Assembly (NCBI GenBank): GCA_019119615.1
Contig: DWWQ01000004.1
Location: 1-64,000, forward strand
DNA: 64,000 bases
Direction: 5' to 3'
Source: Candidatus Alistipes stercoravium
GTDB lineage: Bacteria > Bacteroidota > Bacteroidia > Bacteroidales > Rikenellaceae
The notes under the pieces are model-generated. The model did not search any database. It saw nothing but the letters and a program-made list of their open reading frames with translations, and was not told the origin of the DNA. This document shows positions 41,737 through 43,912 of the stretch, one piece after another. The translations under genes were made by a program, and so were the position numbers. The first letter of the stretch is position 1; every line of letters starts with the position of its first letter.

Positions 41737-41767
41737 TTTGATTTTCCGGAATAATTCGCTACATTTG
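41737..41767 (+). promoter_or_regulatory. Bacteroidota housekeeping promoter of the pheA attenuator
   Basis: TTTG (41737-41740), 19-nt spacer, TACATTTG (41760-41767). Confidence 0.8.
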
Positions 41768-41788
41768 CAACAAGCAACACGACGAACG

Positions 41789-41869
41789 ATGCGTTCATAC
41801 GGATTTGCATACTTCTTTTATTCCTTTTTCTTTTACGCCGAGAGAAAAAGCGGGAGGTCATGCATGTAA
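41789..41869 (+). CDS. Phe/Tyr-rich attenuator leader peptide (26 aa)
   Basis: MRSYGFAYFFYSFFFYAERKSGRSCM*: 6 Phe and 4 Tyr among 26 residues, between promoter and terminator. Confidence 0.85.
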   Translation: MRSYGFAYFFYSFFFYAERKSGRSCM

Positions 41870-41904
41870 CCGGATGAAACGATCAGAAAATACGGTAGAA
41901 CACG

Positions 41905-41936
41905 AAAATCCCGCTCCCCAAAGAGCGGGATTTTTT
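41905..41936 (+). terminator. Attenuator terminator upstream of pheA
   Basis: AAAATCCCGCTC-cccaaa-GAGCGGGATTTTTT, 12-bp perfect stem. Confidence 0.9.
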
Positions 41937-41954
41937 AATGACAACCACAACCCC

Positions 41955-42800
41955 ATGAAACGAATCGCCATACAGGGCATCGCAGGATGCTTCCATGAAA
42001 CGGCCGCCCGCCGCCACTTCCCGGGCGAGGAGCTCGAAATCATCCCCTGCCGGAGCTTCGACGAACTCTTCGGCCGCATGGCCGAAGACCCGGCGCTGCT
42101 GGGCATCGCGGCCATCGAGAACACCATCGCGGGAAGCCTGCTCCCGAACCACGAACTGCTGCGGTGCAGCCGCACGCAGGTCATCGGCGAGGAGAAGCTC
42201 CGCATCTCGCATGTCGCAGCGGCCCTCCCGGGGCAGGGGCTCGACCGGATCCGCGAAATCCACTCGCACCCCATCGCCCTGATGCAGTGCGGGGAGTTCC
42301 TGAAGGGGCACCCGCAACTGAAGGTCGTCGAACGCGACGACACGGCCGGCAGCGCCCAGGAGATCGCCGAATGCCGGCTGGAGAGTACGGCGGCGATCTG
42401 CGGCGCCGATGCCGCGGAGCTCTACGGACTCGAGATCCTCGAACGGGGCATCGAGACCAACAAACACAACTTCACGCGCTTCCTCATCCTGGCCGACGAA
42501 CGCCTCGCCCCGTCGTACGTCGATGCGGAGCGCATCGACAAGGCCTCGCTCCTGTTCACGCTGGCCCATACGCAGGGAAGCCTCTCGAAGGTGCTCACCG
42601 TGCTGTCGTTCTACGACATCAACCTGACGAAGATCCAGTCGCTGCCGATCATCGGCCGCGAGTGGGAGTACCGCTTCTATGTGGACGTGGCCTTCGACGA
42701 CCCGCTCCGCTTCCGGCAGGCGATCGACGCCGTGCGGCCGCTCACGAGCGACTTCCGCATCCTCGGCCAATACGCCGCCTGCACCACTCCGGCGGTATGA
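41955..42800 (+). CDS. pheA: Prephenate dehydratase
   Basis: RIAIQGIAGCFHETAARRHF; LLGIAAIENTIAGSLLPNHELL; C-terminal ACT domain SLSKVLTVLSFYDINLTKIQSLPI. Confidence 0.93.
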   Translation: MKRIAIQGIAGCFHETAARRHFPGEELEIIPCRSFDELFGRMAEDPALLGIAAIENTIAGSLLPNHELLRCSRTQVIGEEKLRISHVAAALPGQGLDRIREIHSHPIALMQCGEFLKGHPQLKVVERDDTAGSAQEIAECRLESTAAICGADAAELYGLEILERGIETNKHNFTRFLILADERLAPSYVDAERIDKASLLFTLAHTQGSLSKVLTVLSFYDINLTKIQSLPIIGREWEYRFYVDVAFDDPLRFRQAIDAVRPLTSDFRILGQYAACTTPAV

Positions 42801-42847: not shown

Positions 42848-43912
42848 ATGAACGACATTCAACCCATCGTATTGCCCGGGGTCGATCCCCGGAGGCCGCT
42901 GGTCATTGCAGGACCGTGCAGCGCCGAAACCGAAGAACAGACACTCAACACGGCCCGGGCCCTTGCCGCCGAGGGATTCCGCATCTTCCGCGCCGGGCTG
43001 TGGAAGCCCCGGACCAAGCCGGGAGGCTTCGAAGGCGTGGGCGCCGCGGGAATTCCCTGGCTGCAGCGCGTCAAGCGCGAGACGGGCATGTACGTCGCCA
43101 CGGAGATCGCCACGCGCGAGCATGTCGCCGCGGCTCTCGACGGAGGCATCGATCTGCTGTGGATCGGCGCCCGCACGGCGGCCAATCCCTTCGCCATGCA
43201 GGAGATCGCCGACGCGTTGCGCGGGCAGGACGTTCCCGTGCTGGTGAAGAATCCCGTGAGCCCGGACCTCGAGCTGTGGATCGGCGCCATCGAGCGCATC
43301 CACAACGCCGGCGTCCGGCGTCTGGCGGCCGTCCACCGGGGCTTCACCTCGATCGACCGCAGCCTCTACCGCAACCACCCCATGTGGGCCATTCCGATCG
43401 AGCTGCACCGCCGCCTCCCGGCACTGCCGATCTTCTGCGACCCGAGCCACATCGGCGGCAAGCGCGAGCTGGTGGCCCCCCTCTCGCAGCAGGCCATGGA
43501 CCTCGGATTCGACGGACTGATCGTCGAGGCGCACTGCACGCCCGACGTGGCCTGGAGCGACAAGGCGCAGCAGGTTACGCCCGAGGCGCTGGGGTACATC
43601 ATCCGCAACCTGGTGATCCGCGAGCAGACCACGACGACCGAAAGCCTCACCGAACTGCGTAAGGGAATCGACCGCCTCGACAACGAACTGCTCGACCTGC
43701 TGGTGCGCCGCATGCGCGTCTCGCGCGAAATCGGACAGTACAAGAAGGAGCACGACATGCCCATCCTCCAGGCGCAGCGTTACGACGAACTGCTCGCGCG
43801 CCGCGCCGCGCAGGCCGTCGAACTGGGCATGGACCGCGAATTCATGCGCACGGTGATGCAGGCCATCCACGAGGAGTCCGTACGGCAGCAGATGCGTATT
43901 CTGGGCGACTGA
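42848..43912 (+). CDS. Bifunctional DAHP synthase / chorismate mutase
   Basis: LVIAGPCSAETEEQTLNTARAL...AGLWKPRTKPGGFEGVG; C-terminal AroQ-type mutase LRKGIDRLDNELLDLLVRRMRVSREIGQYKKEH. Confidence 0.95.
   Translation: MNDIQPIVLPGVDPRRPLVIAGPCSAETEEQTLNTARALAAEGFRIFRAGLWKPRTKPGGFEGVGAAGIPWLQRVKRETGMYVATEIATREHVAAALDGGIDLLWIGARTAANPFAMQEIADALRGQDVPVLVKNPVSPDLELWIGAIERIHNAGVRRLAAVHRGFTSIDRSLYRNHPMWAIPIELHRRLPALPIFCDPSHIGGKRELVAPLSQQAMDLGFDGLIVEAHCTPDVAWSDKAQQVTPEALGYIIRNLVIREQTTTTESLTELRKGIDRLDNELLDLLVRRMRVSREIGQYKKEHDMPILQAQRYDELLARRAAQAVELGMDREFMRTVMQAIHEESVRQQMRILGD

Follow-up and report, generated by a model that had tools for sequence, protein, structure and literature searches.

The control of amino-acid synthesis by leader-peptide attenuation is textbook knowledge, drawn mainly from Proteobacteria and Actinobacteria. 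In E. coli and Salmonella, pheA is controlled by pheL, whose leader peptide contains many cognate residues, through protector, antiterminator and terminator hairpins; the control codons of E. coli pheL are Phe codons only. The locus described here, a leader upstream of pheA in a member of the Bacteroidales, shares with these pheL leaders (Rfam Phe_leader) the logic of controlling pheA by a cognate-rich leader. It differs from the E. coli case in that it occurs in another phylum, in that Bacteroidales leaders conserve both Phe and Tyr and often carry the proximal antiterminator strand (strand 2) within the open reading frame (ORF), and in that the operon comprises prephenate dehydratase (PDT) plus DAHP synthase/chorismate mutase (DAHPS/CM), whereas E. 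coli pheA is a chorismate mutase–PDT fusion. Searches of the window (the whole stretch of DNA that was analysed, 64,000 nucleotides in length) and of 18 related loci returned no Rfam family for the leader, with neither Phe_leader at its gathering threshold nor the T-box model at threshold giving a match.

Within the same phylum, a 2021 transcriptome of Flavobacterium psychrophilum reports strong clues to leader-peptide attenuation upstream of amino-acid operons; the relevant passages give this in one sentence with the genes unnamed, and they contain no comparative or covariation analysis (PMC9723704). The transcriptome map of B. thetaiotaomicron describes small ORFs in long 5′ untranslated regions as ‘reminiscent of leader peptides’, the example being a hypothetical protein (PMC7366714). 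In 2010 Naville and Gautheret likewise described attenuation outside Proteobacteria and Actinobacteria, in a different phylum and for a different gene: in Firmicutes, hisS/hisZ are preceded by His leader peptides. The main text of that paper never mentions Bacteroidetes (PMC2965389). Our search of the open literature turned up no paper that treats attenuation of pheA in Bacteroidota.

All of the elements discussed below lie on the forward (+) strand of the window. A Bacteroidota-type promoter (41737–41767) consists of TTTG at 41737–41740, a spacer of 19 nt and the −7 box TACATTTG at 41760–41767; from its sequence, TTTG reads as a −33-like element, and the box starts 29 nt upstream of the leader ATG. 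The leader peptide ORF (41789–41869; translation MRSYGFAYFFYSFFFYAERKSGRSCM) has 26 codons followed by TAA, and 10 of the 26 are aromatic (6 Phe and 4 Tyr), confined to codons 4–16 (41798–41836). An inverted repeat and the predicted fold define strand 1 of a putative protector hairpin (CTTTTTCT, 41824–41831), which has its partner at 41843–41850. Strand 2 (AGCGGGA, 41849–41855) lies within the ORF, 15 nt beyond the start of the last Tyr codon, and is perfectly complementary to strand 3 (TCCCGCT, 41909–41915), which belongs to the 5′ arm of an intrinsic terminator (41905–41936). The two arms of this terminator (41905–41916 and 41923–41934) are 12 nt each and 100% complementary, forming a 12-bp stem with a 6-nt loop and a T run (41931–41936), four T of which belong to the stem; the ATG of pheA, at 41955, follows 18 nt past the T run. 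The promoter, the Phe- and Tyr-rich ORF, the terminator and the competing antiterminator had all been claimed by the initial annotation, and each is present as it described them. That annotation also took the next gene for both pheA and a DAHP synthase/chorismate mutase, of which only the former stands: the first gene (41955–42800, 281 amino acids) is a prephenate dehydratase (Pfam PF00800, E = 4.9 × 10−49), and the fusion of DAHP synthase and type II chorismate mutase (PF00793 and PF01817) is the second gene of the operon (42848–43912).

The terminator hairpin has a predicted energy of −18.3 kcal/mol (z = −6.3 versus shuffles), and none of 200 dinucleotide shuffles folds as well as the entire leader (z = −4.6). 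The isolated segment from strand 2 to strand 3, in which the 2:3 helix is 7 bp long, folds no better than shuffles (z = −1.1). At this locus, a biosynthetic gene is preceded by a short leader ORF that contains a run of end-product codons. The locus further has an intrinsic terminator that separates the leader from the first gene, an antiterminator that is mutually exclusive with this terminator and is backed by covariation (see below), and control codons sited such that a stalled ribosome would free strand 2. On the basis of sequence and predicted structure, we conclude that the pheA leader very probably acts as a ribosome-mediated transcription attenuator, with charged tRNA-Phe and tRNA-Tyr as the signals that it reads.

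The comparison with relatives drew on pheA loci gathered from 61 related genomes and on 80 loci from public genomes, with sampling across Alistipes, Rikenellaceae, Barnesiella, Muribaculaceae, Duncaniella and other Bacteroidales. Most of the sampled loci have a short F/Y-rich ORF and then a terminator near the start of pheA, usually of the form AAAATCCCGnn...nnCGGGATTTT; where pheA lacks a leader, the upstream reading frame is often a different one. Leader and terminator occur together upstream of pheA at 84 loci with 70 distinct peptides, a set reached by dropping weak terminators and identical peptides and subject to selection bias through the choice of leaders by F/Y score, which the controls address for the class-wide sample only. 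Of these 70 distinct leaders, 65 have a TAnnTT[TG]G box in the 70 nt that precede the leader ATG. When close relatives are compared, their aromatic codons differ chiefly by synonymous change or by exchange of Phe and Tyr (at codons 4–16, pairwise differences comprise 71 synonymous changes, 49 F–Y exchanges and 52 others). One locus (L067) has degenerate tandem repeats (TTTTGACTTTTGACTT...) between the terminator and pheA. Five loci with the same genus label (L025 and L027–L030) carry a second, divergent pheA lineage that is 40–43% identical and keeps an F/Y leader type of its own (MGFFFYKRFYFYRTSGQ...), with strands 2 and 3 of the CGGTCAGG/CCTGACCG type.

Tyr is kept in these leaders almost as strongly as Phe, to judge from their sequences. 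It is present in 69 of the 70, at a mean of 4.1 Tyr against 5.4 Phe, and is the last aromatic residue in 25. The block of ten residues that ends at the last aromatic contains 284 Phe, 236 Tyr, 33 Ser, 5 Leu, 3 Val, 2 Ile and 1 Cys in total; Leu, Val, Ile and Cys together reach only 11, although each, like Tyr, is a single base change away from Phe codons. Two relatives have the gene order pheA–aminotransferase–DAHPS/CM–tyrA behind the leader, so that the end products Phe and Tyr are common to one operon, and the second gene of the operon in the window, DAHPS/CM, feeds both pathways alike. An attenuator that senses only Phe, with the Tyr codons as incidental filler that interrupts poly-U, would be consistent with a first gene specific to Phe synthesis, with the position of tyrA in the window genome (apart from pheA, in a different gene cluster that lacks a leader) and with the one leader that has no Tyr (L013, MTRFFTHFFFFFTQQ). 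Such filler would hardly favour Tyr to this extent over the other one-base neighbours of Phe codons, nor be expected at the last aromatic position so often, and the tyrA-containing operons count against it as well; we therefore regard sensing of Phe alone as improbable. Because Tyr is retained over these neighbours and shares an operon with Phe through tyrA in relatives, dual Phe/Tyr sensing by the pheA leader, which the initial annotation had put forward, is well supported by conservation.

Pairing between strands 2 and 3 is conserved, as measured by tests of own against swapped strands. The mean energy of the 2:3 helix is −14.1 kcal/mol for a leader's own strands, compared with −7.4 kcal/mol for shuffled strands and −10.1 kcal/mol for strands swapped between species (Wilcoxon test, P = 8 × 10−12 and 2 × 10−10, respectively, values that overstate independence because the species are related); the shuffle P value is at most 0.05 in 52 of 62 leaders. 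Leaders whose strand 3 differs from TCCCGC have a correspondingly changed strand 2 (L015, L016, L022, L025 and L093); the compensatory pairs include CGAGGCTT/AAGCCTCG in L022, CGGTCAGG/CCTGACCG in L025, GGCAGGATT/AATCCTGCC in L015 and ACCGGGA/TCCCGGT in L016. At two loci (L094 and L095), a single pheA follows a tandem pair of complete F/Y attenuators, about 315 and 155 nt upstream of it, and in the second of these GGTGGGAT/ATCCCACC replaces CGGG/CCCG, with strands 2, 3 and 4 all compensated. The competing antiterminator first noticed as AGCGGGA/TCCCGCT is therefore kept in relatives through compensatory change. The initial annotation had named the loss of the leader codons or of this pairing in relatives as grounds for refuting its reading; both are conserved.

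The distance from the last Phe or Tyr codon to strand 2 is likewise constrained, falling within 9–19 nt in 69 of the 70 leaders (median 15, s.d. 2.6 nt); only 17% of shuffled leaders fall within this range (s.d. 16.8). The spacing is alike whether the stop codon sits just before strand 2 or, as it does in the window, about 20 nt after it. In E. coli, a ribosome that has stopped with the last control codon in its A site extends about 12–13 nt further downstream, and with the observed spacing a stalled ribosome would therefore just spare strand 2. Folding predictions agree with this placement: when a ribosome occupies the last aromatic codon, the predicted probability of 2:3 pairing exceeds 0.5 in 66 of 67 distinct leaders, and in the window it rises from 0.07 in the absence of a ribosome to 0.98 with one on the last Tyr codon. 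A ribosome at the stop codon would cover at least half of strand 2 in 51 of the 67 leaders (for this position, the mask itself forces the folding result to zero). In the predicted ribosome-free fold of the window, strand 2 is sequestered by the aromatic codons themselves; 45 of the 67 leaders favour 2:3 pairing even without a ribosome. The default state in the absence of a ribosome thus varies among relatives, and the predicted protector hairpin would for this reason be a local feature rather than a general one.

These elements suggest how the leader could work. Transcription would start about 16–20 nt upstream of the leader ATG, with a translating ribosome trailing RNA polymerase. When charged tRNA-Phe or tRNA-Tyr is scarce, the ribosome would stall within the aromatic block and occupy strand 1, leaving strand 2 free to pair with strand 3 before strand 4 has been transcribed; terminator formation would then be blocked, and transcription would proceed into pheA and DAHPS/CM. 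When both charged tRNAs are ample, the ribosome would reach the stop codon and cover strand 2, so that strands 3 and 4 could form the terminator and stop transcription. If no ribosome were present, the 1:2 hairpin predicted for the window sequence would sequester strand 2, and termination would be the default.

A different sensor could in principle act on the same terminator, whether a protein, a T-box-like contact with tRNA or a riboswitch, or the leader could control translation of pheA. The absence of any Rfam match, T-box included, at threshold in the window and the 18 related loci speaks against the RNA sensors with known families, and retention of a terminator with a T run in nearly all leaders argues for control of transcription. 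What is conserved is also what a ribosome would read, namely in-frame aromatic codons that change synonymously or between Phe and Tyr, at a spacing that fits a ribosome footprint, and we consider another sensor, or control of pheA translation, very unlikely. That the terminator simply ends the upstream gene, next to a chance ORF in T-rich DNA and with no regulation, is least probable of all, to the point of being negligible: the region is indeed T-rich, and a consensus promoter and terminator scan found terminator-like sites to be no commoner than in shuffles (a scan set aside for having missed both this terminator and the Bacteroidota promoter), but the terminator comes after the leader ORF and the leader's own promoter, F/Y ORFs precede 17 of 29 pheA genes in a sample of the class Bacteroidia as against 0 of 29 on the antisense strand and 0.25 of 29 in shuffles, and covariation and fixed spacing contradict a chance ORF.

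With ribosome-mediated attenuation as the preferred reading of the pheA leader, the class-wide sample extends the pattern to other pathways. Trp-rich WW(W) leaders occur at 13 of 18 trpE genes (for example, L178, L179, L182 and L189) and His-run leaders at 17 of 27 hisG genes, nearly all of them followed by a terminator; counts for off-diagonal combinations of gene and residue, and for antisense and shuffled sequences, are near zero. These leaders have the logic of trpL and hisL of Proteobacteria, and the Bacteroidia loci differ in having no Rfam match among the 18 that were sampled. For trpE and hisG, pairing of the leader's antiterminator is only weakly above shuffles (−8.9 versus −6.5, with a crude definition of strand 2), and our claim for these genes is limited to a leader plus a terminator. 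At 29 control loci of homoserine dehydrogenase, neither F/Y nor His-run leaders were found, and there was a single WW match (0.6 expected from shuffles); at every one of these loci the Thr/Ile ORF with the best score was recorded, with no test of its significance. None of 28 pheA loci from other classes of Bacteroidota has an F/Y leader. In the window's own genome, where other leaders were looked for at hisG and tyrA only, a His-rich leader (MITRNHIHRHHHLFVIGAKGQAVLYR) and a terminator lie at hisG (L216:1170-1320, G000:C52), and this genome appears, from these elements, to attenuate hisG as well. The same genome (G000, with an assembly that is 93% complete) contains pheA, tyrA and hisG, and a search of it for trpE or another chorismate-binding enzyme found none; Trp auxotrophy or an assembly gap is the likely cause.

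The mechanism is classical, and its presence in the phylum had been partly indicated before. The class-wide pattern at pheA, trpE and hisG, the evidence from covariation and spacing, and the Phe plus Tyr composition seem to have no precedent in searchable open papers. We think it likely, although with less assurance than for the pheA leader itself, that the leader-peptide attenuators of the class Bacteroidia form a common set, as yet uncatalogued, that serves the synthesis of His and the aromatic amino acids, that the pheA member is a true dual sensor of Phe and Tyr, and that its fixed distance of 15 nt between the last control codon and the antiterminator implies transcription–translation coupling tight enough for the ribosome to steer the polymerase. 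Attenuation at pheA, trpE and hisG across Bacteroidia would offer a ready explanation for pathway control in a major group of gut and marine bacteria, and would add new RNA families and many small ORFs for annotation. The pheA leader would serve as a simple reporter for transcription–translation coupling in Bacteroidia, and dual sensing of Phe and Tyr by a single leader becomes testable.
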